This document shows, in pieces, positions 18,660-31,786 of a stretch of 64,000 bases of DNA; position 1 is the stretch's first letter, and every line of letters begins with the position of its first letter. The notes beneath the pieces were generated by a model. That model was not told where the DNA came from. It saw only the letters and a list, made by a program, of their open reading frames with translations, and did no database searches. This DNA comes from Caenibius tardaugens NBRC 16725 (lineage in GTDB: Bacteria > Pseudomonadota > Alphaproteobacteria > Sphingomonadales > Sphingomonadaceae), in NCBI RefSeq assembly GCF_003860345.1, contig NZ_CP034179.1, forward strand, positions 3,828,001 through 3,892,000. The letters are read 5' to 3'. Both the position numbers and the translations under genes were made by a program.

Positions 18660-19883
18660 TCAGGTTGCCACGTTCCATTCCAGCGGCAATTTCTTGAGCA
18701 TAAGCGTCGCACCAGCATGGCTTTCGATCGCGCCAGCATCGGGTGCGATCCGCAGGTCGGGCATGCGCGGTAGCAGCTCCTCGATCATGATGGTCAGTTG
18801 CTTGCGCGCAAGGTAGGCGCCGATGCACAAGTGCGGCCCGGCCCCAAATCCGAGATGTTTGACGCGGCGTCCGCCTGCACGGTCGAAGTCGACTTCCAGC
18901 GGGTTATGCCACTGGTCGGCGTCGAGGCCGGCGATGGGGGTTCCTGCGCAGACGACATCGCCTTGTTTCATAACCACACCCCGGAAGACCTGATCCTTGG
19001 CGGCGGCTCGTCCGATGAACGAAATACCGAAACGGCGAAGCAGTTCCTCCAACGCAACCGGAATCGCGGAAGGGTTCTGGAGCAGGTAATCGCGATGACC
19101 GGGGTTTTCCGCAAGGAACCGCATGATATGCGTCATCTGTGATGTGATCGTGTCGAGACCGCCGGAAAACAGCATGAGTGTCATCGAACGCATATCGTCG
19201 AAATCGGGACGTTTGCCGTCGATCTTCATCCGCATCAGGGCCTGAAACATCGGCCCCTGATTGGCAGCGGGATTGGCGAGCTGTTGCTGCAGCCACTCGG
19301 TCACCCAACTGAAGGCGTCGATAAAGCCCTGGTTGGTTTCCTCTACGGTCTGCCCGCGGAAAATCAGTTTGATCCACGATAGACACTGATCGCGCAGCGA
19401 AAGATCGGCCCCCATCAGATTGAGAAAGGTATCGATTGGCAGTTTGTAGGCGAATTCGGAGACAAATTCACAGCGCCCTGGGGTGAATTCGTCGAACAGC
19501 TTCAAAGTGAAAGCACGGGTGTCAGGATCGATAGTGGCCAATGCGCGGGGCGAAAACAGGTTGTTTGCCATCGCCTTGCGGTATGCCGTGTGTTTCGGCG
19601 GATCGAAATTATTCGGGATCAGCACCACCGACGCATCGCGTTTGGGGATGGCCAGCGAAGTCGCGGTAAACCGTTCGTGGTCGGCGAAGATTTCCTCGAT
19701 CGCATCCGTCGAACGGGCGATCCAGTAGCCGCCGAGATCGGGCGAGAAGAAGATTTCGGGGCAATCGTTCAGGCTGGCGATATACCCGTAAGGATCGCTG
19801 CTGATCGCCTTGTCATTCCGAAAATCGAACGACTTTACGAGATGTGCGGGCACGTGATCAGGAACAGTGGCGGGCGCGGTCAC
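18660..19883 (-). CDS. cytochrome P450
   Basis: A 407-residue soluble bacterial P450. It has the I-helix SGGLDTITS (Gly where Ala is usual before the acid-alcohol pair), the K-helix EELLRRF (E-x-x-R) and the haem loop LGFGAGPHLCIGAYLAR with the axial Cys near residue 353. It would hydroxylate a hydrophobic substrate with electrons from ferredoxin and a reductase, neither of which is encoded nearby. The GTG start has GGAGAG 7 nt before it. It lies downstream of the IclR gene on the same strand with a 131-bp gap holding its own inverted repeat. Probably the entry step of the pathway. Confidence 0.92.
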   Translation of the reverse strand: MTAPATVPDHVPAHLVKSFDFRNDKAISSDPYGYIASLNDCPEIFFSPDLGGYWIARSTDAIEEIFADHERFTATSLAIPKRDASVVLIPNNFDPPKHTAYRKAMANNLFSPRALATIDPDTRAFTLKLFDEFTPGRCEFVSEFAYKLPIDTFLNLMGADLSLRDQCLSWIKLIFRGQTVEETNQGFIDAFSWVTEWLQQQLANPAANQGPMFQALMRMKIDGKRPDFDDMRSMTLMLFSGGLDTITSQMTHIMRFLAENPGHRDYLLQNPSAIPVALEELLRRFGISFIGRAAAKDQVFRGVVMKQGDVVCAGTPIAGLDADQWHNPLEVDFDRAGGRRVKHLGFGAGPHLCIGAYLARKQLTIMIEELLPRMPDLRIAPDAGAIESHAGATLMLKKLPLEWNVAT

Positions 19884-19893
19884 AGAATCTCTC

Positions 19894-19919
19894 CGTCAGG
19901 TGATATTGTTGCCCTGACG
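19894..19919. promoter_or_regulatory. inverted repeat upstream of the P450 gene
   Basis: CGTCAGG and CCTGACG, 7-bp perfect arms separated by 12 nt, lie 11-36 bp upstream of the P450 start. They could be an operator or a 5'-UTR hairpin. The motif is unlike the TTCC-N8-GGAA sites. Confidence 0.35.
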
Positions 19920-20014
19920 TATGGCGCGGATGCCACCTGTGGGTAGCGTGAAATCCATCATGAGAAGGAAAGTTGGCGGTCCGTGTTCTCTATGTCGGTA
20001 TTGGTTTGATTGGG

Positions 20015-20863
20015 TCATTGCAGCGCATATGGTTGCGCTGACTGGAGAAAGCGATCCCGGTGCCGCATCACAGCGGCTTGTAAAGCGTTTGCAACCTGCT
20101 TGATTTCCTTTTCCGATTCAAACAGCTTGTCACCCACAATGCCAATTGCGTGCGGCGAAACGGCATTGGGTATTTGCAAAGGTACAGCGATAGAATCGAG
20201 AACAATGTCGTTGCGTCGGCAGAGGGCGAACCCTTGCGCCCTGGTGCGTGCCACGCGATCAACGAGATACTTCATCAGGGATGGACCGCTGGGGCCGATA
20301 CCCAGTTGCTGGGCCCGGGTCACGAGCTTGATGATTTCAACATTGGAATGCTGGGCAAGAATGGCAGCTGCAAAATTGGTGCCCGGCTGCCAGCGATCAT
20401 GATCGTAACGGATGACCTCGGTTGGGAAATCCACATCTTCTTCCGGTGTCAGCCAATGGCCCCGGATTTGTGCAACGTTCTCGACCCAGCAGTCATTCTG
20501 GAAGGTAATGTAAACGGTGGCTCCGGTTTCCGCCCGCACTTCATTGAGCAGTTCGCCGATATAATCGCCGCCGAAGAAATTGCGTTCAATGCTGCGCCCG
20601 GTCGCCACAAGTTTGTAGGACGGGACATAACGTTTGGTTTCGCGATTGAAAGTAAGATAGCCCATCGAGGCCAGCGTGCGCAGGATCTCATCAGTACTGG
20701 AATTGGGAATACCCAGCGCCTCGCTGATATCGATCGTGCGGGCAGGGGCATCGTGCTGGGTAAAGTAATGCACGATGTCGAGTGTGCGCAGGCACGATTT
20801 GACCCCACTCTGTGTGGTAGGGCGGGTATTGCCATTATCTGCGTCCGGCCGTTTCTTAGCCAT
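20015..20863 (-). CDS. IclR-family transcriptional regulator
   Basis: 282 residues. The N-terminal winged helix (about 18-80) reads SCLRTLDIVHYFTQ...TIDISEALGIPNSSTDEILRTLASMGYL. It is followed by the IclR effector domain with GATVYITFQND, PGTNFAAAILAQHS and a late DSIAVPLQIP. IclR proteins often control catabolic genes and bind acids. GGAGAGG precedes the ATG. It diverges from an SDR gene across a region carrying operator site 6, which makes it the leading candidate to bind the six TTCC-N8-GGAA sites and to regulate itself. This link is inference. Confidence 0.9.
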   Translation of the reverse strand: MAKKRPDADNGNTRPTTQSGVKSCLRTLDIVHYFTQHDAPARTIDISEALGIPNSSTDEILRTLASMGYLTFNRETKRYVPSYKLVATGRSIERNFFGGDYIGELLNEVRAETGATVYITFQNDCWVENVAQIRGHWLTPEEDVDFPTEVIRYDHDRWQPGTNFAAAILAQHSNVEIIKLVTRAQQLGIGPSGPSLMKYLVDRVARTRAQGFALCRRNDIVLDSIAVPLQIPNAVSPHAIGIVGDKLFESEKEIKQVANALQAAVMRHRDRFLQSAQPYALQ

Positions 20864-21018
20864 GGAACCTCTCCGTCTACCCCATGTGCCAGTCTTGTGC
20901 CGGCTTCAAATCAGCCCATTTTCATGAACTTTGATAAGGCACGTGGTAATGGATGCGCCGGGCCGCTTCAAGCCATGTGTCCTCTTGATGCGACCAGTTC
21001 CTGGCGTCGTCATGCGCA

Positions 21019-21034
21019 TTCCGGATACGTGGAA
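21019..21034. promoter_or_regulatory. cluster operator site 6 (TTCC-N8-GGAA)
   Basis: TTCCGGATACGTGGAA lies between the IclR regulator and the divergent SDR gene. The GGAA runs into ATTTCC, so an overlapping GGAAATTTCC palindrome is also present. Confidence 0.52.
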
Positions 21035-21128
21035 ATTTCCGGCTCATTCTTGCGGCCGCTTGCGATGGTGGCGTGCGTGATGTCAGATGGTTGCCCGGGT
21101 TCGCTTCGGGACTGTGAAGGGAGAGTAT

Positions 21129-21893
21129 GTGATCAGTAATCGTCTGGCGGAAAAAGCCATTATCGTTATCGGATCGGGCACTGGAATTGGTGCGGCCACG
21201 GCGCGGCGCCTGGCGCAGGAAGGCGCAAAGGTCTGTCTGGCTGATATCAATCTTCCGGCTGCAGAACGTGTTGCGGAAGATATCGTGGCGGAAGGTGGAG
21301 ATGCTTTCGCGTGCCTGATAGATCTCGCTGACGAGCATTTGGTGAATACTGCTGTAGAGGCGGCGGTGGGACGTTTTGGCAAGCTCGATGGCGCACATAT
21401 CAATGCGGCGGACATGAAGACCCTGCTGGAGGATGCCAATATTCTCGAACAGCCCATGGCTGTCTTCGACCGGACGATACAGATCAATTTGCGCGGCCAT
21501 GTCCTGTGCACACGGGCTGTCCTGCCGCACCTGCTTGAAAATGGCGGCGGTTCTATCGTTTACACGACATCGGGTGCGGCCTTTGCCGGGGAACCGGTCC
21601 GCCCCGCCTATGCGATAACGAAAAGTGGCTTGACCGCGTTGGCGCGGCATGTGGCGATGGCTTGGGGCAAGAAGGGGGTCACGGCCAACTGCATAGCCCC
21701 GGGGCTGACCATCACGGAATCGGCAGGGGCGACTGGCAGTGAGTTTAGGGCGGCGATGCTTGAACATACTCCCCACGTCCGCCTCGGTGAACCCTCCGAC
21801 ATCGCCAATATGGTCGCGATGTTGTTGTCGGAGGATGGGCGCTGGATCAACGGACAGACCTACAATGTCGATGGTGGCGTGATCATGCGCTGA
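21129..21893 (+). CDS. SDR-family oxidoreductase
   Basis: A 254-residue classical SDR: IVIGSGTGIGAATA cofactor loop, HINAAD in place of NNAG, a catalytic Ser in TTSGAAF, YAITK (Tyr-x3-Lys), and a C-terminal YNVDGGVIMR. The GTG at 21129 is chosen because GAAGGGAGAG precedes it and residue 1 then matches family N-termini; an ATG 42 nt upstream has no clear ribosome site. It is the last catabolic-cluster gene. Its stop is 6 bp from that of the convergent EamA exporter. Likely oxidises a hydroxyl set by the P450, by context. Confidence 0.87.
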   Translation: MISNRLAEKAIIVIGSGTGIGAATARRLAQEGAKVCLADINLPAAERVAEDIVAEGGDAFACLIDLADEHLVNTAVEAAVGRFGKLDGAHINAADMKTLLEDANILEQPMAVFDRTIQINLRGHVLCTRAVLPHLLENGGGSIVYTTSGAAFAGEPVRPAYAITKSGLTALARHVAMAWGKKGVTANCIAPGLTITESAGATGSEFRAAMLEHTPHVRLGEPSDIANMVAMLLSEDGRWINGQTYNVDGGVIMR

Positions 21894-21899
21894 TCGCGT

Positions 21900-22838
21900 T
21901 TATGTATCTGCGCCGTCGTTAGCGGATGTCCTTTTGCTGGCGGCGGCACCAAGAATGATACCTCCAAGAATGATCGCCATCCCGATCAGGTGGAAGCTTT
22001 GCAGCCGCTCGTCCAGCAGGGCTGACGCCAGAAATGCACCGAACAGCGGCATGAGTGTGATGGTTTGTCCGGCAGGCCCCGCGCCGAGATCACGCACGGC
22101 TGCGTTGTAGAGCAGATAGGCGATAAGCGAGGGGAAGACTGCAACATAGGCAAAGGCACACAGCGTTCCCGCGCTGAATTGCACGCGCAAGCCCTGCGCA
22201 TGTTCCCACAACGCAAATGGCGCCATCGTGACTGCGCCAATAACAAAGGTCGCCACAAGAAAGCTGAGAGGGTGGCAGGGCGGACGGATGCGCAGCAGGC
22301 TGGTATAGGCGGCCCAGCATGTCACCCCGCACAGGATCAGCAGATCGCCCAGATTGAAATGCAATGTCAGGATTGCCGCGAGATGGCCGCGCAGAACGAT
22401 CAGCACCACCCCGAGCATGGACAGCAGTACGCCAGCGATCTGAAGGACAGGCGATCGCAACCGGAAGAACAGAAGGTTGAACAGAAGAACCAGCGCAGGA
22501 GTGGCCGCCTGCAGCAAAAGGCCGTTGCTGGCCGTCGTGAAGTGCAGTCCGGAATAGACAAAGCCATTGAATCCGCCGACACCGGCAACGCCCAGCAGCA
22601 GGATGATACGCCAGTGCTGGCGCAGGATTTGCCAATCTGCGCGCAATTTCGGCCAGGCAAAGGGCAGCACCAGAAGGACGGCCCCGCTCCAGCGGACGAG
22701 CGCGAGGGTAAACGGTGGGATGGCGCCCTGAACGGCGCGTCCGACAACGAAGTTGCCGGACCAGAACAGCATGACGAAAACCAGGCTGGCATAAGACAGC
22801 CAGCGTGTTTGATTTGAAACCTGCGTGTGTGCGGGCAT
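21900..22838 (-). CDS. EamA/DMT-family exporter
   Basis: 312 residues with about ten hydrophobic helices in two EamA repeats. The first repeat starts SLVFVMLFWSGNFVVGRA and the second includes GVTCWAAYTSLLRIR. Members of this drug/metabolite group include amino-acid exporters such as RhtA (family knowledge). It starts two bases after the MocR-type stop and is probably cotranscribed with it. The pair plus the divergent dioxygenase suggest export of an amino-acid-derived compound; this is inference. Confidence 0.86.
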   Translation of the reverse strand: MPAHTQVSNQTRWLSYASLVFVMLFWSGNFVVGRAVQGAIPPFTLALVRWSGAVLLVLPFAWPKLRADWQILRQHWRIILLLGVAGVGGFNGFVYSGLHFTTASNGLLLQAATPALVLLFNLLFFRLRSPVLQIAGVLLSMLGVVLIVLRGHLAAILTLHFNLGDLLILCGVTCWAAYTSLLRIRPPCHPLSFLVATFVIGAVTMAPFALWEHAQGLRVQFSAGTLCAFAYVAVFPSLIAYLLYNAAVRDLGAGPAGQTITLMPLFGAFLASALLDERLQSFHLIGMAIILGGIILGAAASKRTSANDGADT

Positions 22839-22840
22839 CC

Positions 22841-24226
22841 TCACACGACGCCCAGCGCTGACTTGTCGCTGCCAGGTTGCAGCAGGCCATGCAACGCGCG
22901 CAGGCATGTCTCAAGCTTGCCACGCTCGCGAATGGCGCCGAGGCATATACGGAGACCCGATGGTGCATTGGATGCGACTATAGGGGCGCCCGGCGGAGTG
23001 AGCGCGATCCCGGCGCGCAGTGCGCGGGATGTCAGGCGTTCTGCGTCGATCGCCGGCATGGGCATCCACAGATGGAGGCTCCGTTTCGCCCCGGGTTTCG
23101 CCAGTGCGGTTCCCAGAACGTCCTGTGCCAGCCGCGTGCGGGCTTCGGATTCGGCGAGCACGGCATCGGCGATTTTATCGGCGGTACCATCCTGTTCCCA
23201 TTGGCTGAAGAGAAGCGGGCCGAGCGTGGGCGGGCTATACCCGAAGGCGCGCAGCCCCATGAACAGCCGGTCGCGCAAGGCATCTCCATCCGGAGGTAGA
23301 ACGAATCCGAGGCGAAGGCCCGGCGCGATCGGCTTGGAAATGCCCGCGACCAGCAGGGTTCGTTCGGGAGCAAGTTCGGCAAAGCTGTCCGGTGCGTTTT
23401 CGGGCGCGAAAACGCGGTAAGCCTCATCCTCGACGATTGTCAGATCGTATTGTCGGGCGATGGCGATGATGTCTGCGCGCCGTGCGGGGTCGAGCGTGAT
23501 GGTCGTGGGATTTTGCAGGGTTGGTATGAGGACCAGTATCCGTGCGCCGGTATCGCGCGCGGCGCGGGCGATCGCTTCCGGATCGATACCGCGATCGTCC
23601 ATCGTTACCCCATGAAGATTGTAACCTGCATGGGCGGCCAGGGTTTTGATTCCCGCGTAAGTGGCCGCTTCGCACAGGATTGTATCGCCCGGCCTCGCCA
23701 GTGCGGAAAAGGCGAGGGCCAGGCCATGTTGGCCCCCATTGCACTGTATCAGCCGATCCGCCGTGGCGCGGGTCATGCGGTGGCGTCGGCGGAGCCACGA
23801 AGCCCCTGCGTGGCGGGCTGCCAGCAACCCTTCCGGCGGCGGGTAATTCAGGCAATCGAGCAAGTCAGCCCTCTGGCGCAAGCTATTCAGGCCTTCGTTG
23901 AGCCAGCGTTCCGAGGGTGCGAGCGGCGGGGCATTTTGCGCCATATCCGCCGGGCCTGCGTCCATAGCGAGCGGAACGGTGGCATGATCGGCAACGTAGG
24001 ACCCACGCCCCACATGGCTCGAGAGAAGGCCGCGACGTTCGGCTTCACCATAGGCGCGGCTGACGGTTCCCACGCTTAACGAAAGGCGGTGCGCCAGGTC
24101 GCGATGCGGTGGCAGTCGTTCGCCCGGGCGCAGTATCCCGTGATGTACGTCATGCTCGAGCGCGGCGATCAGGCGTTCGTACAAGGGTGATGGGCCTTCG
24201 GGGATATTCGGAAGCCAGTTTGCCAT
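22841..24226 (-). CDS. MocR-type PLP-dependent GntR regulator
   Basis: 461 residues. A GntR winged helix (about 10-80, including LPPHRDLAHRLSLSVGTVSRAYGEAERRG) is joined to an aminotransferase-fold domain. That domain has CNGGQHGLALAFSAL, the Asp/Tyr of IVEDEAYRVF and the Schiff-base Lys in VAGISKPIAPGLRLGF. MocR proteins usually sense PLP or amino-linked ligands and control a neighbouring gene. ATG 24226 has AAGGA 8 nt upstream and drops 17 unlikely residues. A palindrome at 24238-24255 lies immediately upstream, so autoregulation is likely. Confidence 0.91.
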   Translation of the reverse strand: MANWLPNIPEGPSPLYERLIAALEHDVHHGILRPGERLPPHRDLAHRLSLSVGTVSRAYGEAERRGLLSSHVGRGSYVADHATVPLAMDAGPADMAQNAPPLAPSERWLNEGLNSLRQRADLLDCLNYPPPEGLLAARHAGASWLRRRHRMTRATADRLIQCNGGQHGLALAFSALARPGDTILCEAATYAGIKTLAAHAGYNLHGVTMDDRGIDPEAIARAARDTGARILVLIPTLQNPTTITLDPARRADIIAIARQYDLTIVEDEAYRVFAPENAPDSFAELAPERTLLVAGISKPIAPGLRLGFVLPPDGDALRDRLFMGLRAFGYSPPTLGPLLFSQWEQDGTADKIADAVLAESEARTRLAQDVLGTALAKPGAKRSLHLWMPMPAIDAERLTSRALRAGIALTPPGAPIVASNAPSGLRICLGAIRERGKLETCLRALHGLLQPGSDKSALGVV

Positions 24227-24237
24227 GCGTTCATCCT

Positions 24238-24255
24238 TATTGAACTGGTTCAATA
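24238..24255. promoter_or_regulatory. TTGAAC-NN-GTTCAA palindrome, copy 1
   Basis: TATTGAACTGGTTCAATA is an 18-bp dyad with only the central pair unmatched. It lies 11 bp before the MocR-type ATG, in the divergent region facing the NTF2-like gene. Copy 2 is at 24769-24788. Confidence 0.62.
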
Positions 24256-24401
24256 TCACGTTTGACGTATAGTGCAAATTGTATCATTTGGTTGAAAGAG
24301 CTGATCTTAAGGTCCAGGCTGATTGCGCTAATGCATTAGATAGTCTGGTTCATTTTGTAACGGCCGGATCGAACGATATCCTCATCGAAAAGGAGTTTGT
24401 C

Positions 24402-24770
24402 ATGAATCGTGATGAGATGGAGCATTTTTCCAGATTGTGGATCGGACACTGGAATGCGCGCGATATCGACGCGGTGCTCGACGTATTCACCGACGACGCC
24501 CGCTTCATCAGCCCACTGGCGGCGGAAGTCACCGGATCGCCGGTTATCGCAGGCAAGGCCGCGTTGCGACAGTATTGGAAGAAGGCGCTCGACCAGACGG
24601 AGAGCCTGCATTTTTCCCTGATCGGTTCGATCTGCGATCTCGAACGGCAGACGCTGGTCGTGCAGTATCGCGCGGAGCGGAACGGCAGGGTCACACGTGC
24701 GGCTGAGGCGATGCGCTTTGAAGGGCGCTGGCAAGTGGAAGGGGAGGCATTATATGGTGCCCCACTGTAA
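24402..24770 (+). CDS. NTF2-like/SnoaL-like protein
   Basis: 122 residues with an NTF2-like cone fold pattern: MEHFSRLWIGHWNARDIDAVLDVFTDDARFISP, then GKAALRQYWKKAL and a C-terminal EAMRFEGRWQVEGEALYG. The fold serves as isomerases, cyclases or binding proteins; no specific function can be read. AAAAGGAG lies 7 nt before the ATG. It is first in a two-gene unit with the dioxygenase and is flanked on both sides by the same palindrome. Confidence 0.8.
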   Translation: MNRDEMEHFSRLWIGHWNARDIDAVLDVFTDDARFISPLAAEVTGSPVIAGKAALRQYWKKALDQTESLHFSLIGSICDLERQTLVVQYRAERNGRVTRAAEAMRFEGRWQVEGEALYGAPL

Positions 24771-24788
24771 ATTGAACCGGTTCAATTT
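24769..24788. promoter_or_regulatory. TTGAAC-NN-GTTCAA palindrome, copy 2
   Basis: AAATTGAACCGGTTCAATTT, a perfect 20-bp palindrome, overlaps the stop codon of the NTF2-like gene and ends 11 bp before the dioxygenase ATG. The shared core with copy 1 is ATTGAAC-NN-GTTCAAT. Confidence 0.65.
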
Positions 24789-24799
24789 GAGGTAATCCG

Positions 24800-25546
24800 A
24801 TGGGCGCCGGTCATAAATCGGATGGTGTGCCGCCCCTGTGGACTGCATCCGTGGGTGTCATCACGCAACTGCATGCGGACATGTTGGTGCTCCCCGCGAT
24901 TTCGACTGTGACACAGGCGCCAGATTGGCAGGCGTTCGCGGATAGCTGGCACGATCTTCCGGCTGATGACCACATGGGGGATGGCGGCGCCTATCGCCAG
25001 CGGCGTTATGCGGCCTTCCGCGCTGATATGTCGGGATGCCAGCGTCTGCGGCATCGGTCTCATTATCAGGAAAGGGCGCATAACTGCCTCAACGGCGGCA
25101 TTCAGCGCTGGTTCGCGCCGATGCAGCCGGCCACAGTGTCGTCGGATGCCTTCGCACAGGCGATGCATTGCATGGCGGACGCTGTGTGCGAACGGGAGGG
25201 CAATCCGTCCTCGGAATGGTTCGTCGAAGTGCACCAGTTCCGGATCATGGCGCAAAACGGTCTACCAGGTCTGCCGACACCGGAAGGTCTGCATCATGAC
25301 GGGCGTGACTGGGTGATGATCCTCTATGTCGGCGGTGAGAATTTTGCTGGAGGCGAAACGTCGGTCGTTGGCGCCCGGGAAACGGTGCTGCGTCACCGAC
25401 TGGGTCAACCGGGTGAGGCCTTGTTTCTCGATGATCGGCGATTGCGTCACGCGACGTCAGCCATTGTGCCGGTTCGGCCTGGCTTGCCTGCCTGGCGTGA
25501 CACGCTGGTCATTACCTACGCTGTGATGCCTGATCGCGTTTTGTGA
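24800..25546 (+). CDS. 2-oxoglutarate/Fe(II)-dependent dioxygenase (PF10014, free amino acid hydroxylase type)
   Basis: 248 residues. The core GLHHDGRDWVMILYVGGENFAGGETSV contains the H-x-D iron ligands, and a distal His lies in RRLRHATSAI. The closing W-R-D-T-L-V-I-T-Y is typical of the PF10014 group. Known members hydroxylate free amino acids such as isoleucine (family knowledge). GAGG lies 8 nt before the ATG. Together with the MocR regulator and the EamA exporter it suggests formation and export, or breakdown, of a hydroxylated amino acid. The substrate is not predictable here. Confidence 0.84.
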   Translation: MGAGHKSDGVPPLWTASVGVITQLHADMLVLPAISTVTQAPDWQAFADSWHDLPADDHMGDGGAYRQRRYAAFRADMSGCQRLRHRSHYQERAHNCLNGGIQRWFAPMQPATVSSDAFAQAMHCMADAVCEREGNPSSEWFVEVHQFRIMAQNGLPGLPTPEGLHHDGRDWVMILYVGGENFAGGETSVVGARETVLRHRLGQPGEALFLDDRRLRHATSAIVPVRPGLPAWRDTLVITYAVMPDRVL

Positions 25547-25616: not shown

Positions 25617-26084
25617 TCAGAGATCGGCAATGCGCGCGCCGGCACCAAACTCGGCGGCACGATCGCCTGGGTTACGCAACGGACAGTCGGAAATCGAAAG
25701 GCAGCCGCAACCTATGCAACTGGCGAGTTGGTCTCGAAGGCGGGTGAGGAGCGTGATGCGTTCGTCAAGATCACGCTGCCAATCGCGGGAGAGCTCGCTC
25801 CAATCCGCGGTGCTTACCGGCTTGCCGCGCGGTTTGGCGTCCAAACGCGCCTTGATATCTGCCAAGGGGATGCCGACGCGCTGTGCAATGCGAATGACCG
25901 CTATGAGCCGCAGGACTGAGCGATGATAGCGCCGTTGGTTACCACTGGTCCGCCAGCTTTCTATAAGACCCTGAGTTTCATAGAAATGTAGAGTCGACAC
26001 TGCTACACCCGCGCGGCGAGCGACCTCGCCTACGGTCAATGCGTGACTGTAATCGACAAGCGTCATGCGTTTGTTGTCTTTCAT
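25617..26084 (-). CDS. soxR: SoxR, redox-sensing MerR-family activator
   Basis: 155 residues. The MerR helix-turn-helix [26 protein letters not shown] is followed by a dimerisation helix and the [2Fe-2S] ligand set in [19 protein letters not shown] (four Cys), diagnostic of SoxR. It activates target promoters when the cluster is oxidised by redox-cycling compounds. It diverges from an RND efflux operon with a soxbox between them. Neither possible ATG has a strong ribosome site (26084 used; 26066 possible). No soxS is seen, as is normal outside enterics. Confidence 0.95.
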
Positions 26085-26107
26085 TGGGAACGGTTCGAAA
26101 AAATCCC

Positions 26108-26138
26108 TTTACCTCAACTATGGTTGAGGTTCTATGGG
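26108..26138 (+). promoter_or_regulatory. SoxR-type promoter with soxbox
   Basis: A -35-like TTTACC (26108-26113) and a -10-like TATGGG (26133-26138) are 19 bp apart. The 18-bp dyad CCTCAACTATGGTTGAGG (26112-26129) fills the spacer. Layout and spacing match the enteric soxS promoter (family knowledge). It faces the RND adaptor gene; the first codon is 31 bp downstream. Confidence 0.8.
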
Positions 26139-26169
26139 GGTGGCTTCGGTATCGTAACGGGAGCTGATT

Positions 26170-27293
26170 TTGCAAGATTCACCGAGCCAGGCCGGTAAGT
26201 GGCCGATCAAGTCCTGGCGACAGGCCGCTCTGGCGGTTGGCCTTATAATTCTGGTTTTTGGCCTGCTTTTCCTATGGAGAAGCTGGCGGAATGCTGCGCC
26301 GCCGCCTGCCGAGCGGCCACCCGTGGCCGTCACCGCGACATTTGTCGAACCGCGCGATGTGCCCACGGCCTTGCAGGCTGTCGGTTCCTTGCGTGCGGTG
26401 CAGGAAGTCATGCTGGCGCCGGAAGTGGCAGGGCGCGTTACGGCGATCCGTTTTCAGCCCGGCGCACGCGTGGGTGCAGGGGCACCGCTTGTGCAACTGT
26501 TCGATGGGCCGGAGCGGGCAGACCGCGCGGCAGCGGTGGCCAAGGCCGATCTTGCCCGCGTGCAATTGGCACGATCGCGCGAACTGGCACCAAGCGGCGC
26601 CGAATCCAAAGACGTGCTCGATCAACGCCGCGCGGAATATGCGCAAGCGATGGCTGCCGTTCATCAACTGGACGCGCGGATTGCCCAGAAGCGTGTCGTT
26701 GCGCCTTTCGCGGGCCAGATTGGTGTGCGCAGGATTAATCTGGGGCAGTATCTGAATCCCGGTGATGCTGTGGCATCCCTGACTGCGCTGGACCGACTCT
26801 ATGCCGATTTCAATGTGCCGCAGCAGGATCTGGCGCAGCTTCATGTCGGGGGACGGTGCAACTCACCTCCGATGCCTGGCCCGGCCGCACCTTTACGGGC
26901 CGCGTGACGACGATCGAGCCACGCATCGGTGAGGATAGCCGCAATGTCATGGTTCAGGCGCTGCTGCCCAACCCGGGGCAACTGCTGCGCCCGGGGATGT
27001 ATGTGAACGTGGCGCTGGAACTGGCTGCGCAGACAGGGGCGCTGGTTGTTCCGGCAACGGCCATCCAGACGTCCGCGTCAGGTGATAGCGTCACGGTTAT
27101 TCGCGGCCGCACCCCCCGTAAGGAAGGCAATGCTGAAATGGTCGGCGTGGTGACCGGTCGACGGATTGGCGACAGCGTGGTGGTGACCAAGGGGCTCAAG
27201 CCCGGCGATGTAGTGGTGACCGAGGGGCAAATCCGCGTGCAACCCGGCGCGCCGGTGCGTGTGGTCCGGATTGTGCCGGCGATGAAGGATTGA
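26170..27293 (+). pseudogene. RND efflux periplasmic adaptor (HlyD/MFP family), broken by a 1-nt frameshift
   Basis: The two frames together give a normal adaptor of about 374 residues. It has an N-terminal membrane anchor (AALAVGLIILVFGLLFLW), barrel/lipoyl halves with VGSLRAVQEVMLAPEVAGRV and RVVAPFAGQIGVRRI, then TIEPRIGEDSRNVMVQALL and a membrane-proximal end. The first part (26170-26907) is lost at the G5 run 26848-26852; the rest continues in another frame from about 26853. Adding one G restores V-G-G-T-V-Q-L. Start is TTG after GGGAG. It is the first gene of the SoxR-facing pump operon; if the shift is real the pump lacks its adaptor. Sequencing error is quite possible. Confidence 0.85.
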
Positions 27294-27297
27294 TCCC

Positions 27298-30200
27298 GTG
27301 CATTTTACCGATCTGTTCATTCGCCGCCCGATCCTGTCCATCGTGGTTAGCCTCCTGATCCTGCTGGTCGGCGGGGCATCGGTATTCATGCTCCAGGTGC
27401 GGGAATATCCGAACATGGAGAGCGCCACGATCGTGGTGAACACCTCCTATCCCGGCGCCACGCAAGACGTGATGCAGGGTTTCGTGACCACGCCGATCGC
27501 GCAAGCAATCGCAACGGCAAACGGTATCGAGTACCTGACTTCGTCATCCACGCAGGGACGAAGCGAGGTCAAGGCCAAGCTGGTGCTGAACGCCGATGCC
27601 GACCGTTCCATGACGGAGGTTCTGGCAAAAGTGCAGCAGGTGAAATTTCGCCTGCCGCCGGGGGCCAGCGATCCGGTGATCAACAAGATCACCGATGGCG
27701 CATCCGCGGTTCAGTATGTCGCATTCACCAGCGAAACTCTGTCGATCCCGCAGATTACCGATTTTGCAACGCGCGTGGCCCAGCCGCTGATTACCGCGGT
27801 CCCCGGCGTTGCGTCCGTTGATATGGGCGGGGGGCAGACACTGGCCATGCGCATCTGGATCGATCCGGACAAGATCGCCGCACGCGGTCTTTCCGCCGGG
27901 CAGGTGGCGGATGCCCTGCGTGCCAACAATGTGCAGGCCGCGCCGGGACAACTCAAGGGCACGTCCACTGCGATCAATATCACGGCGGGTACGGATCTCA
28001 CCAATGTGGATGATTTCCGCAACATGGTGATCAAGACGGGAACCGATGGCGTTGTCCGGCTTGGCGATGTGGCCACGATTGAAATCGGTGGGCAGAACTA
28101 TAACAGCAGCGCCACCACCGGCGGGAAGCCAGCCATATTCATCGCCATTTCGCCGACGCCAGACGGCAATCCGCTGGAAATCGTCAGTGCGGTGAAAGCC
28201 CTGATCCCGGATATGCAGCGCGTTGCGCCCCCGGGCCTCAAGGTGTTCAGCCAGTTCGACGTGGCGCATTTCGTGGAAGCGTCGATCGATGAGGTGTCGC
28301 ATACCCTGGTCGAGGCGGTGCTGATCGTTGTTCTGGTGATTTTCCTCTTTCTCGGATCGGTCCGGGCGGTGATTATTCCGGTTGTGACGATCCCGTTGTC
28401 GCTCGTCGGAACGGCAGCCCTGATGCTGGCGTTTGGATTTTCGCTCAATCTGCTGACCCTGCTGGCCATGGTGTTGGCGATCGGTCTGGTGGTGGACGAT
28501 GCGATCGTGGTGGTTGAAAACATTCACCGGCACATCGAGGAAGGCCTTGCCCCGGTGCAGGCCGCGATTGTGGGCGCGCGCGAAATCGTCGGCCCGGTGA
28601 TCGCGATGACAATCACGCTGGCTGCAGTATACACCCCGATCGGCCTGATGGGCGGGTTGACCGGTGCGCTGTTTCGGGAATTCGCCTTCACACTGGCGGG
28701 ATCGGTGATTGTATCCGGGGTGATTGCGCTTACGCTGTCGCCGATGATGAGCAGCTATCTGCTCAAGGACAAGATGGCCGAAGGCAAGCTGTCCCAGCGG
28801 ATTGAACATACGATGGAACGGCTCACCCATGGCTATGAAACGCTGCTGGGCAAGACACTGGCCGCGCGCGGTGCGGTGTTGCTCGTCGGTCTGGCGGTTC
28901 TGGCAGGCATCGTGATCCTGTTCAGCGGCACGCGCAGCGAACTCGCGCCGCAGGAGGATATGGGATACGTCTTCGTTCAGACGAAAGCGCCGCAATACGC
29001 GAATGTGGACTACACGGCGCGCTTTGCGGAGGATGTTCAGAAAATCTACGCTTCCATGCCGGAGTATGTCAGTTCGTGGGATACGGCGGGCCTGTTCAGC
29101 CCGAATGGCGGCTTTGGCGGGATTATTCTGAAGGAATGGAGCGAACGCAAACGCAGCGCGGATGAAATTCAGGCGCAGCTTAATGCCGAAGGGGCGGCGA
29201 TTACTGGTGTTTTCGCGACATCGTTCCAGCCACCGCCGTTACCTGCGGGCAGTGGCGGTTTGCCGGTGCAGATGGTGATCCGGTCATCCGATGACTTTTC
29301 GGCGATCTATCAGACGCTCGAACAGATCAAGGGGGCTTCATGGGGCAGTGGCCTGTTCGCTTTTGTCGACAGCGACCTTGCCTTTGACAGCCCGGAAGCG
29401 CGGATAACCGTAGACCGGGAAAAGGCCGGGCAAATGGGCGTGTCTATGGATGCCATCGCGGGCACGCTGGCAACGTTGGTTGGCGAAAACTATGTCAACC
29501 GCTTCAACTGGCACGACCGGTCGTACGACGTGATTGCACAGGTGCCGCAGCAGAAACGCCTGACGCCGGATAATCTCGGGCAGTACTATGTCAAAGCGAC
29601 GTCGGGCGCGCTGGTTCCTTTGGCGACAGTGGTCAAGGTGGATATGCGCCCGCAGGCCAATCAGTTGCCGCAGTTCAACCAGATGAATTCGGCCACGATT
29701 TCGGCGGTTCTGGCCCCCGGCGTGACGATGGGCGAGGCGGTTGCTTTCCTGAAATCGCAACCCTTGCCACCGGGCATGACAATCGACTGGCTGTCGGACA
29801 GCCGCCAATATGTGCATGAAGGAAACCGTCTGACGGTGTCTTTCGGTTTCGCGCTGGTGGTGATTTTTTTGGTGCTGGCGGCGCAGTTTGAAAGCTTCCG
29901 CGATCCGGTGGTCATTCTCGTTACCGTACCGCTTGCGGTGTGCGGTGCGCTGGTGCCGCTCTACCTCGGTTATGCGACGCTCAATATCTATACGCAGATC
30001 GGATTGGTGACCTTGATCGGGTTGATATCGAAACACGGCATTCTGATGGTCTCTTTCGCCAACGAGATGCAGCACAACGAGGGACTGGACCGGATTTCCG
30101 CGATCCGGCGTGCGGCGGCCGTGCGTATGCGACCGGTGCTGATGACGACGGCAGCGATGGTTGCCGGTCTGGTCCCTTTGCTGTTCGCCAACGGCGCGGG

Positions 30201-30375
30201 TGCGTCGAGCCGGTTTGCCATCGGGATCGTGGTGGTGATGGGGATGCTGATCGGCACCTTGTTCACCCTGTTCGTTCTGCCGACGATCTACAGCTTTGTG
30301 GCGCGTGACCATCGGGCAGCGTCAGAAAGCGAGCGTACCAAACAGATCGCCCTGACGGAGACCGCCCATGCGTAA
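27298..30375 (+). CDS. RND efflux permease (HAE1/MexI-like)
   Basis: 1025 residues, full length for an inner-membrane drug/proton antiporter. It begins FTDLFIRRPILSIVVSLLILL and has the first periplasmic loop, and VLAIGLVVDDAIVVVENIHRH, the helix-4 region with the paired Asp residues of the proton relay. The second half ends with IGLISKHGILMVSFANE. The GTG start is 4 bp after the adaptor stop, so expression depends on the same transcript. With the SoxR promoter this resembles the redox-induced MexGHI-OpmD system of Pseudomonas, without a mexG-like gene. Confidence 0.93.
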   Translation: MHFTDLFIRRPILSIVVSLLILLVGGASVFMLQVREYPNMESATIVVNTSYPGATQDVMQGFVTTPIAQAIATANGIEYLTSSSTQGRSEVKAKLVLNADADRSMTEVLAKVQQVKFRLPPGASDPVINKITDGASAVQYVAFTSETLSIPQITDFATRVAQPLITAVPGVASVDMGGGQTLAMRIWIDPDKIAARGLSAGQVADALRANNVQAAPGQLKGTSTAINITAGTDLTNVDDFRNMVIKTGTDGVVRLGDVATIEIGGQNYNSSATTGGKPAIFIAISPTPDGNPLEIVSAVKALIPDMQRVAPPGLKVFSQFDVAHFVEASIDEVSHTLVEAVLIVVLVIFLFLGSVRAVIIPVVTIPLSLVGTAALMLAFGFSLNLLTLLAMVLAIGLVVDDAIVVVENIHRHIEEGLAPVQAAIVGAREIVGPVIAMTITLAAVYTPIGLMGGLTGALFREFAFTLAGSVIVSGVIALTLSPMMSSYLLKDKMAEGKLSQRIEHTMERLTHGYETLLGKTLAARGAVLLVGLAVLAGIVILFSGTRSELAPQEDMGYVFVQTKAPQYANVDYTARFAEDVQKIYASMPEYVSSWDTAGLFSPNGGFGGIILKEWSERKRSADEIQAQLNAEGAAITGVFATSFQPPPLPAGSGGLPVQMVIRSSDDFSAIYQTLEQIKGASWGSGLFAFVDSDLAFDSPEARITVDREKAGQMGVSMDAIAGTLATLVGENYVNRFNWHDRSYDVIAQVPQQKRLTPDNLGQYYVKATSGALVPLATVVKVDMRPQANQLPQFNQMNSATISAVLAPGVTMGEAVAFLKSQPLPPGMTIDWLSDSRQYVHEGNRLTVSFGFALVVIFLVLAAQFESFRDPVVILVTVPLAVCGALVPLYLGYATLNIYTQIGLVTLIGLISKHGILMVSFANEMQHNEGLDRISAIRRAAAVRMRPVLMTTAAMVAGLVPLLFANGAGASSRFAIGIVVVMGMLIGTLFTLFVLPTIYSFVARDHRAASESERTKQIALTETAHA

Positions 30376-31786
30376 GATCGCATTCCTTTCCGCATGCGCT
30401 CTTACGCTGGCGGGGTGTGCCGCCGGGCCGGATTATCGCGCGCCGGCAGCCTTGCCGACAACAGACACGGGGCCGTTCATCAGCACGGCGCCGGGCACGA
30501 GCAATGCCGAGCCACAAGGTGACTGGTGGCGGCTGTACAACGATCCAGCGCTGGACAGGCTTGTTACACGTGCACTCGTGGCGAACACGGATCTGCGTGT
30601 GGCGGCCGCCAATCTTGCCCGTGCCCAGGCCATTCTGCGCGAAGCGGGGGCCGGGCGCTTGCCATCGACCGATCTGTCCGGCGGGGCGAGTTATGGCGAC
30701 GGTTCCGGCGGGGGCTTCTCACAGGGCAGTGGCAACACGCAGTGGAGCTACACCGGCGGGATGGCTATTTCGTGGGAGATTGATCTGTTTGGTCGGATCG
30801 GCCGTACGATCGAAGCGGCGCGCGCCGACCGGGATGCCGTGGCCGCTGCGCATGAAAGGGTGGCGGTGGTTGTCGCGGCGCAGACCACCCGGGCCTACGC
30901 CGATGCCTGTGCACTTGCAGAAGCAAGCGCGGTGGCGCGGGAATCGATCGATATCGCCCGGCGGGGGCTTGATATCGTGACCGCACAGGAGCGGGTGGGG
31001 ACCGCATCGCGCTTTGATCTGGAGCGTGCAAGCACAGCTTACGCCAACGCACGGGCGGCTTTGCCGCCATTGGAAGGCGCGCGGCAGATTGCCCTGTTCG
31101 AACTGGCGGCCTTGCTGGGCCTTCCGCCTGCACAAGTGCCGGAAGAAGCCCGGCAATGTACGCGGATACCGGTGCCCGTATCGGCCATTCCCGTGGGGGA
31201 TGGGCGGGGGCTGCTGGCCCGACGCCCCGATGTACGCGAGGCGGAACGGCGGCTCGCTGCCGATACGGCCAGGATTGGGGTGGCGACGGCTGACCTCTAT
31301 CCGCGGATCGCATTGGGCGGATCGGGCAACTTCTTCCGCAACGATCAGGTGAAGGGCAGCGATTCCTTCAGCTTTTCCCTCGGCCCGCTGCTGTCATGGA
31401 GCTTCCCGAATATCGCCACTGCCCGAGCGCGCATCGCGCAGGCAGAGGCAGGCACGCAGGCTTCGCTCGCGACATTCGATGGCACAGTGCTGAATGCGCT
31501 GAAAGAAGTGGAACAGGCGCTTGCCAGCGTGGCCAGTGAAGACCGCAGGCGTGCTGCCCTGGCCGATGCGGTGCGCAGCGCGGATGCCGCCTATGATCTG
31601 GCGAACCGCCGTTATCGGGCGGGTGCCATGTCGTTCCTCGATCTGCTGGATGCACAGCGCTCGCTGGTCGAGGCACGCGCCGCCCTGACCGCATCGGAGC
31701 GGGCGCTCGGTTCCGCGCGAATTGATCTGTTCAGGGCGCTGGGCGGTGGGTGGCAGACCCTACCACCGGCGCGGGCAGGTGCCTGA
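30368..31786 (+). CDS. outer-membrane efflux lipoprotein (NodT/OprM family)
   Basis: 472 residues. A lipoprotein signal peptide ends in LAGC (Cys18), followed by the standard GPDYRAP start of OprM-like channels and two duplicated outer-membrane-efflux repeats (ARADRDAVAAAHERV... and a second-half LADAVRSADAAYDLANRRYRAG). It overlaps the pump gene by 8 nt. It forms the exit duct of the tripartite pump. It ends just before a 15-bp hairpin. Confidence 0.92.
   Translation: MRKIAFLSACALTLAGCAAGPDYRAPAALPTTDTGPFISTAPGTSNAEPQGDWWRLYNDPALDRLVTRALVANTDLRVAAANLARAQAILREAGAGRLPSTDLSGGASYGDGSGGGFSQGSGNTQWSYTGGMAISWEIDLFGRIGRTIEAARADRDAVAAAHERVAVVVAAQTTRAYADACALAEASAVARESIDIARRGLDIVTAQERVGTASRFDLERASTAYANARAALPPLEGARQIALFELAALLGLPPAQVPEEARQCTRIPVPVSAIPVGDGRGLLARRPDVREAERRLAADTARIGVATADLYPRIALGGSGNFFRNDQVKGSDSFSFSLGPLLSWSFPNIATARARIAQAEAGTQASLATFDGTVLNALKEVEQALASVASEDRRRAALADAVRSADAAYDLANRRYRAGAMSFLDLLDAQRSLVEARAALTASERALGSARIDLFRALGGGWQTLPPARAGA

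Follow-up and report, generated by a model that had tools for sequence, protein, structure and literature searches.

The question raised by positions 21900-25546 of a 64-kb window (the whole stretch of DNA analysed) from Caenibius tardaugens NBRC 16725 (contig NZ_CP034179.1; genome 4.36 Mb) is whether four neighbouring genes, coding for an EamA exporter, a MocR-type regulator, an NTF2-like protein and a PF10014 Fe(II)/2-oxoglutarate dioxygenase, form one unit and what such a unit might do. Sequence comparisons of this cassette with its relatives indicated that the association of the MocR and dioxygenase genes is more than a chance neighbourhood, since the two share exact operator-like sites and since the MocR, NTF2 and dioxygenase genes recur together in related bacteria. 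A check of the open reading frames of the window revealed that all four frames are open, and their Pfam matches agree with the families named in a preliminary description of this DNA. The regulator joins a GntR domain and an Aminotran_1_2 domain in one protein and was therefore assigned to MocR. The genes and the putative sites are as follows.

21900..22838, minus strand: EamA (drug/metabolite transporter, DMT) exporter, directly 3' of MocR; PF00892, 8.1e-41
22841..24226, minus strand: MocR-type regulator; GntR PF00392, 1.8e-13, and Aminotran_1_2 PF00155, 3.3e-28
24239..24254, no strand: putative operator 1, ATTGAACTGGTTCAAT, 12 bases 5' of the MocR start codon, with TTTGAC (24261-24266) toward NTF2
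24402..24770, plus strand: NTF2/SnoaL-like protein, 122 amino acids; SnoaL_2 PF12680, 1.5e-12
24771..24786, no strand: putative operator 2, ATTGAACCGGTTCAAT, with the NTF2 stop codon on one side and the dioxygenase ribosome-binding site on the other, 13 bases 5' of the ATG
24800..25546, plus strand: PF10014 Fe(II)/2-oxoglutarate dioxygenase; 2OG-Fe_Oxy_2 PF10014, 3.7e-55, with HxD...H (H165, D167, H217) and R233

The dioxygenase scored 187.1 bits against PF10014 (gathering threshold 23.1) and was the sole PF10014 match found in the genome. The EamA protein reached 84.3 bits with NCBIfam TIGR00950, under the cut-off of 230.2. The NTF2 start is most likely 24402, a small correction, as AAGGAG precedes this ATG and the alignment of relatives agrees.

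Operator-like sites shared by MocR and the dioxygenase

The palindrome TTGAACNNGTTCAA is present in two exact copies in the whole genome, both in the cassette, one 5' of MocR and one 5' of the dioxygenase. With up to two mismatches, 14 forward matches were found in the genome, 12 of them outside the cassette, against 1 for the reversed control pattern, while a shorter pattern with at most one mismatch gave 16 sites against 5 for its control. Shuffling the window 100 times gave on average 0.14 sites with no more than two mismatches, and 2 of the shuffles reached two sites. The third-best genome site (4319144, one mismatch) lies inside a coding frame and was discounted. Each of the two sites adjoins a ribosome-binding site, that of MocR or that of the dioxygenase, and on the NTF2 side the first lies upstream of TTTGAC; this placement would permit both repression and activation by MocR.

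Relatives were taken from the best 80 of 562 dioxygenase relatives (the named loci), of which 18 carry a dioxygenase of at least 50% identity (close loci, L053-L069 and L071) and 62 are distant; neighbouring genes were located by tblastn. The 15 named loci that bear MocR (270,475 bp) contained 27 sites at up to two mismatches, 14 at the junction of MocR with a LysE exporter gene (LysE1) and 13 before the dioxygenase unit, while the 65 other named loci (1,147,413 bp) contained none. A control of 20 first-order Markov shuffles gave a mean of 0.3 sites and a maximum of 1. Twelve of the 13 second sites lie 17-325 bp 5' of the cupin or dioxygenase match, and that of L067 is at the start of the matched stretch, 5' of another ATG; L066 has a three-mismatch site before its dioxygenase unit. 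G061 (L033), a relative of the same genus, has one exact site, with the dioxygenase directly after LysE1-NTF2. The two-site arrangement is thus retained in relatives. Many of the second sites differ little because they share recent ancestry, so that the 13 cannot be counted as independent; the versions that differ are one in the window, one in L055/L068, one each in L067 and L071, and the common form.

In the 15 relatives compared and in G061, site 1 is followed by TTTGAC and then by a half-box, mostly TTCAAT; in the window the palindrome and TTTGAC are kept and the third box is degenerate. The commonest MocR layout is one inverted repeat with two direct boxes (PMC5320631). The EnuR operator ATTGTnnnnnnACAAT has the same 16-bp layout as the window sites (PMC8739950), but the core here is TTGAAC/GTTCAA, unlike that of the EnuR and PdxQ operators. 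Two further palindromes were observed near MocR genes of a sister group, treated below: ATTGTACCGATACAAT at L160:4994-5009, which matches the EnuR consensus exactly and lies where the L160 MocR gene reaches its stop codon, and, by eye, a different, TGTCAyNrTGACA-like palindrome in the MocR-LysE intergenic regions of L153-L159.

Recurrence of the gene set and its descent

Among the 18 close loci, MocR was found in 15, and the same 15 carry LysE1 divergent from it. The NTF2 gene and an AAA_28 P-loop gene trailing the dioxygenase were each found in 12, and an upstream cupin gene in 11 (one partial). EamA lies near MocR in 9 (two partial or cut at the locus end), a count that is a lower bound because some loci end in or near MocR. 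EamA, MocR, NTF2 and dioxygenase were all present in 8. In L053, L054, L056-L060, L062 and L064, MocR, accompanied by EamA in those loci where EamA was seen, is divergent from LysE1-NTF2, after which come extra genes and then cupin-dioxygenase-AAA_28; L071 shows this order with gaps. The extra genes code for DJ-1, a second LysE (LysE2), serine hydrolase, thioesterase and DSBA-like proteins. In L034 (1297-3411) NTF2 is separated from the dioxygenase unit by other genes, which code for GFA, a RES-domain protein, a small cupin protein and a hexapeptide transferase.

At the 62 distant loci, some of them short, none of the set was found near the dioxygenase, and no MocR exceeded 40% identity; the exceptions are a 27% MocR match in L116 and a LysE1-like gene (41%) about 7 kb off in L087. 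By eye, no cassette gene was recognised among the 16 commonest neighbour clusters at distant loci, a clustering that took 52 of 71 such loci, 19 being omitted where the crude gene caller missed the dioxygenase.

A draw of 298 genomes of the family was also surveyed; it apparently shares records with the named-locus scan, so that the two counts are not additive. A dioxygenase of at least 50% identity was found in 10 genomes. MocR of at least 58% identity was confined to 9 of these 10 among the 298, the match in G193 being a partial frame, and NTF2 of at least 50% was found in 8, all within the 9 that bear MocR. No p-value is given for this co-occurrence because related genomes cluster.

The shared sites and this co-conservation support the proposal that regulator, dioxygenase and exporter are linked as one regulated unit. 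The preliminary description was largely right on this link, but the exact foursome is confined to 8 of the 18 close loci. The conserved unit is a different one: relatives add the cupin, the AAA_28 P-loop protein, hydrolases and a second LysE, and EamA (9/18) is seen less often than MocR and a LysE exporter (15/18 each), the latter missing from the C. tardaugens genome.

A dioxygenase tree was constructed from 51 rows (48 of the 80 named loci together with the window, G061 and G164; 32 named loci, all distant, were excluded) and midpoint-rooted, its bootstrap being unsettled. Presence of the cassette required 2 changes on this tree, compared with a shuffled mean of 15.0, and none of 500 shuffles was as low; most simply, the sequences would imply one gain and one loss, the latter in three Novosphingobium. 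A clade of 21 was obtained with support of 99/95, and since rows of different genera are near-identical within it, recent horizontal transfer is suggested. Accessory proteins reach 98% identity across genera and Altericroceibacterium spongiae carries three copies. The cassette has probably spread horizontally. Dioxygenase and MocR matches in a plasmid collection were all below 60% identity and a PHROGs search returned no family; a PF10014 relative (42%) was seen on a contig of a viral collection (L189:1177-1815).

Sister MocR genes (43-51% identity) adjoin LysE1 homologues with no dioxygenase nearby in all eight loci examined, seven of the pairs being divergent and that of L160 on the same strand; G174 and G220, two of the genomes concerned, carry a distant dioxygenase at another place. 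Since sister pairs occur without a nearby dioxygenase, the MocR-LysE pair probably predates the link to the enzyme.

In the Novosphingobium loci L061, L063 and L065 a different MocR (25-27% identity) lies near the dioxygenase, and in L039, apparently on the same contig as L061, a PhzF gene adjoins it. L061, L063 and L065 possibly hold a second MocR-PF10014 association.

The dioxygenase, the NTF2 protein and the regulator

Alignment of 32 sequences revealed that H165, D167, H217 and R233 of the dioxygenase are invariant. Its predicted model (predicted local distance difference test, pLDDT, 85.4; residues 1-20 unreliable) matched 8w8h (Z 27.6), 3pl0 (Z 27.4, 31% identity), HrmJ (Z 26.0 and 23.2), isoleucine dioxygenase (IDO, Z 24.7), BelL (Z 23.2) and TqaL (Z 21.7), the next rows being at Z 13.9 or below; as modelled, the fold is the same as that of solved PF10014 relatives. 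The PTPEGxHxDG motif resembles 3pl0, HrmJ and BelL, not 8w8h, and profile scores for HrmJ (175 and 113 bits) and BelL (113) were above those for IDO (79) and TqaL (57). HrmJ and BelL share the fold (Z 23.2-26.0), the TPEGxHxD iron motif and an amino acid as substrate with what is proposed here, but are only 27-29% identical to the cassette enzyme in the structural alignment; they belong to the peptide antibiotic clusters of hormaomycin and belactosin, respectively, and form a cyclopropane on L-6-nitronorleucine (PMC10764440).

The other characterised relatives likewise use free amino acids, which the preliminary description had named for this group, or derivatives of them. TqaL acts on L-valine (PMC11880133); IDO takes L-isoleucine and further aliphatic amino acids as substrates (PMC10180240, PMC13336071), and leucine and threonine are used by other members of PF10014 (PMC3684760). 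By analogy, the substrate of the cassette enzyme would be a free amino acid or a close derivative. When IDO contacts were placed by spacing from the iron ligands, S153, P155, Y143 and R227 corresponded to P159, P161, I149 and R233; since only half of the contacts are kept, the specificity of IDO is not to be assumed.

The NTF2 protein gave a predicted model with a pLDDT of 95.9. Its closest structure is 3h3h, of unknown function (Z 19.2), followed by ketosteroid isomerases at about Z 16. By sequence the matches to ketosteroid isomerases were weak (best E 0.0012), and no ketosteroid isomerase family was among its Pfam or NCBIfam matches. The positions that we take to be the catalytic Tyr and Asp of ketosteroid isomerases look absent in the NTF2 protein (A5).

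The best model for MocR was EhuR NF052286 (EnuR/EhuR) with 335.7 bits, under the cut-off of 480, while PdxR gave 149 bits. Alignment of seven MocR proteins revealed the Lys (GISKP), Asn (QNPT), Asp (EDEAY) and C-terminal Arg (SGLR) residues; from aminotransferases, we take the Lys to be the lysine that holds pyridoxal 5'-phosphate (PLP) and the Arg to bind a carboxylate. The presence of these PLP-type residues is consistent with an alpha-amino-acid ligand. The ectoine regulators EnuR/EutR, and likewise PdxQ, resemble the cassette regulator in family, PLP residues and a 16-bp inverted-repeat operator, and PdxQ also controls DMT and LysE exporters (PMC8739950, PMC5320631). EnuR is a repressor, with ectoine-derived amino compounds binding as inducers (PMC8739950). 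The cassette adds a PF10014 dioxygenase; in the accessible part of PMC5320631 the sole dioxygenase seen for these regulons is TauD. No ectoine genes were found among the 8 window proteins and 10 proteins of relatives that were scanned, no genome-wide ectoine search having been made.

Proposed function, alternatives and significance

The explanation that we favour, with about even confidence, is that the MocR-controlled unit senses, oxidises and exports an amino-acid-like compound and that its original job was inducible detoxification and efflux. It starts from gene identities, shared operator-like sites, co-conservation, clustering on the tree, catalytic residues and fold, all established by computation, and from these we infer MocR binding at the sites, its ligand, the direction of regulation, the substrate, the export step and the role of the NTF2 protein. 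An alpha-amino compound would react with the PLP held by MocR, and MocR at ATTGAACNNGTTCAAT would then permit expression of the divergent NTF2-dioxygenase genes and of its own MocR-EamA genes. The dioxygenase would act on a free amino acid, or on a close analogue of one, by oxidising a C-H bond, and a DMT/LysE-type exporter would expel the substrate or the product. In evolutionary terms, the dioxygenase would have joined an older MocR-LysE exporter pair.

Several observations weigh against this explanation. EamA (E 1e-80) is widespread, being found in 47 of the 298 genomes, and is only loosely tied to MocR. L061, L063 and L065 have a close dioxygenase and no cassette, and L069 has the cassette genes and no recognisable site. 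The 12 further genomic sites, against 1 in the control, suggest that the regulon may be wider than the cassette. The nearest solved structure by sequence, 3pl0 (31%), is uncharacterised, and the IDO contacts S153 and Y143 are replaced by P159 and I149.

The copy in the window also departs from its relatives. LysE1, which lies between MocR and NTF2 in G061, had no match anywhere in the C. tardaugens genome, while the same query matched four other genomes including G061, its source. The AAA_28 P-loop gene found 3' of the dioxygenase in G061 is likewise absent from the cassette, a 57% homologue being present elsewhere in the genome. Numerous translated matches with E close to or above 1 that the window gave with L033 were disregarded as noise. 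The dioxygenase has a long branch on the tree (0.9). Its ratio of nonsynonymous to synonymous changes per site (pN/pS) in comparison with G061, where synonymous sites are near saturation, was the highest of six genes (0.45, against 0.27 for EamA, 0.26 for MocR, 0.19 for SoxR, 0.14 for NTF2 and 0.13 for the RND pump). Because of the two missing genes, the long branch and the high pN/pS, the function of the cassette may be relaxed or changed in this genome. The dioxygenase was not called a pseudogene because its frame is open and its catalytic residues are kept. Compared with its relatives, the window cassette is a reduced version, with EamA as the sole predicted exporter left in it.

The main alternative, though less probable, is biosynthesis, close to what the preliminary description had proposed: the dioxygenase would modify an amino acid, for example by hydroxylation, and the product would be exported to act as a signal or to inhibit growth, on the pattern of the IDO operon of Bacillus. 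Its logic and its enzyme and exporter families are those of the IDO operon of Bacillus thuringiensis and of the Hil operon, in which a PF10014 dioxygenase acting on a free amino acid is encoded with an exporter, RhtA-type in IDO and bacterium-specific in Hil (PMC3684760). Hil has a LysR-type regulator, whereas the cassette has MocR and two operators, and the cassette enzyme is remote from both systems (23.4 bits with the HilB equivalog model, whose cut-off of 350 is well above this score; 17% structural identity to IDO). Both known operons include a short-chain dehydrogenase/reductase (SDR). In the window an SDR gene (21087-21893) abuts EamA, and inspection by eye showed two SDR-like frames ahead of the dioxygenase in L039, which lacks the cassette; but matches of at least 50% identity to the window SDR were found in only one of the best 80 of 562 relatives (L054), so that this SDR does not belong to the conserved set. 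The cassette has the NTF2 protein in addition. No ligase or dehydrogenase was among the ten proteins of relatives scanned, the close cassettes not having been fully clustered. Making and exporting a hydroxylated amino acid is possible, but inducible detoxification and efflux is the somewhat better account, since the sister MocR genes adjoin LysE without a dioxygenase nearby in 8 of 8 loci, which suggests that efflux came before the enzyme.

It is rather unlikely that a horizontally mobile, gene-rich region merely carries the dioxygenase and NTF2 genes along as passengers and that what the dioxygenase oxidises has nothing to do with the MocR ligand. The region is highly variable between loci, its accessory proteins are shared almost unchanged across genera and the window dioxygenase evolves fast, but the window and 13 of the 15 named loci with MocR keep a second operator ahead of the dioxygenase unit, across several gene arrangements. 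Also improbable is a PdxQ-like regulon in which MocR reads the vitamin B6 or PLP state and exporters and dioxygenase handle B6 vitamers or PLP-damage products: PdxQ regulons hold DMT or LysE/YggA transporters and a PhzF-related gene (PMC5320631), the sister-clade L154 has PNPOx and PhzF genes near MocR-LysE and PhzF adjoins the L039 dioxygenase, but no PNPOx gene was found among the cassette proteins scanned, exporters being present, the EhuR model outscores PdxR and the operator is EnuR-like. We attach very little weight to a further speculation, in which a self-contained, ligand-inducible system for disarming amino acids moves horizontally as a MocR regulon: the PF10014 enzyme, which by profile score is closer to the ring-forming HrmJ and BelL than to IDO, would produce an amino acid that is strained or oxidised, the product would be opened or rearranged by the NTF2-fold protein, and exporters would clear it.

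To the left of EamA, genes for a cytochrome P450 (minus strand), an IclR regulator (minus strand) and the SDR (plus strand) lie at 18660-21893, and the same trio (79%, 80% and 74% identity) occurs in L054 (Croceicoccus estronivorus) on the other side of the cassette. These genes were weighed as members of the unit because the IDO operon includes a reductase, and were rejected; with the SDR at 50% identity or more, the trio recurs only beside the L054 cassette. On the right (25617-31786) a SoxR regulator (TIGR01950, 1.1e-61) diverges from HlyD/RND/outer-membrane efflux genes, named from their translations, and the neighbours in G061 are similar.

The component families are known, and among the papers listed by literature searches on the enzyme, the regulator, their combination and the relatives, none described the cassette. 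What the comparisons add is a conserved, predicted MocR regulon of some Sphingomonadales-type bacteria in which exporters are linked with a PF10014 dioxygenase. An uncharacterised branch of amino-acid dioxygenases thereby gains a predicted regulator, DNA site and exporters, and the search for its substrate is narrowed because the MocR ligand is likely to be the substrate or product. The predicted contents of MocR regulons are extended by dioxygenase genes, and the sister pairs hint at how an enzyme came to be recruited to an exporter pair. The enzyme may find use as a biocatalyst if its substrate proves to be a common amino acid; with a natural toxic amino acid as substrate, the cassette would represent a resistance route in environmental bacteria.

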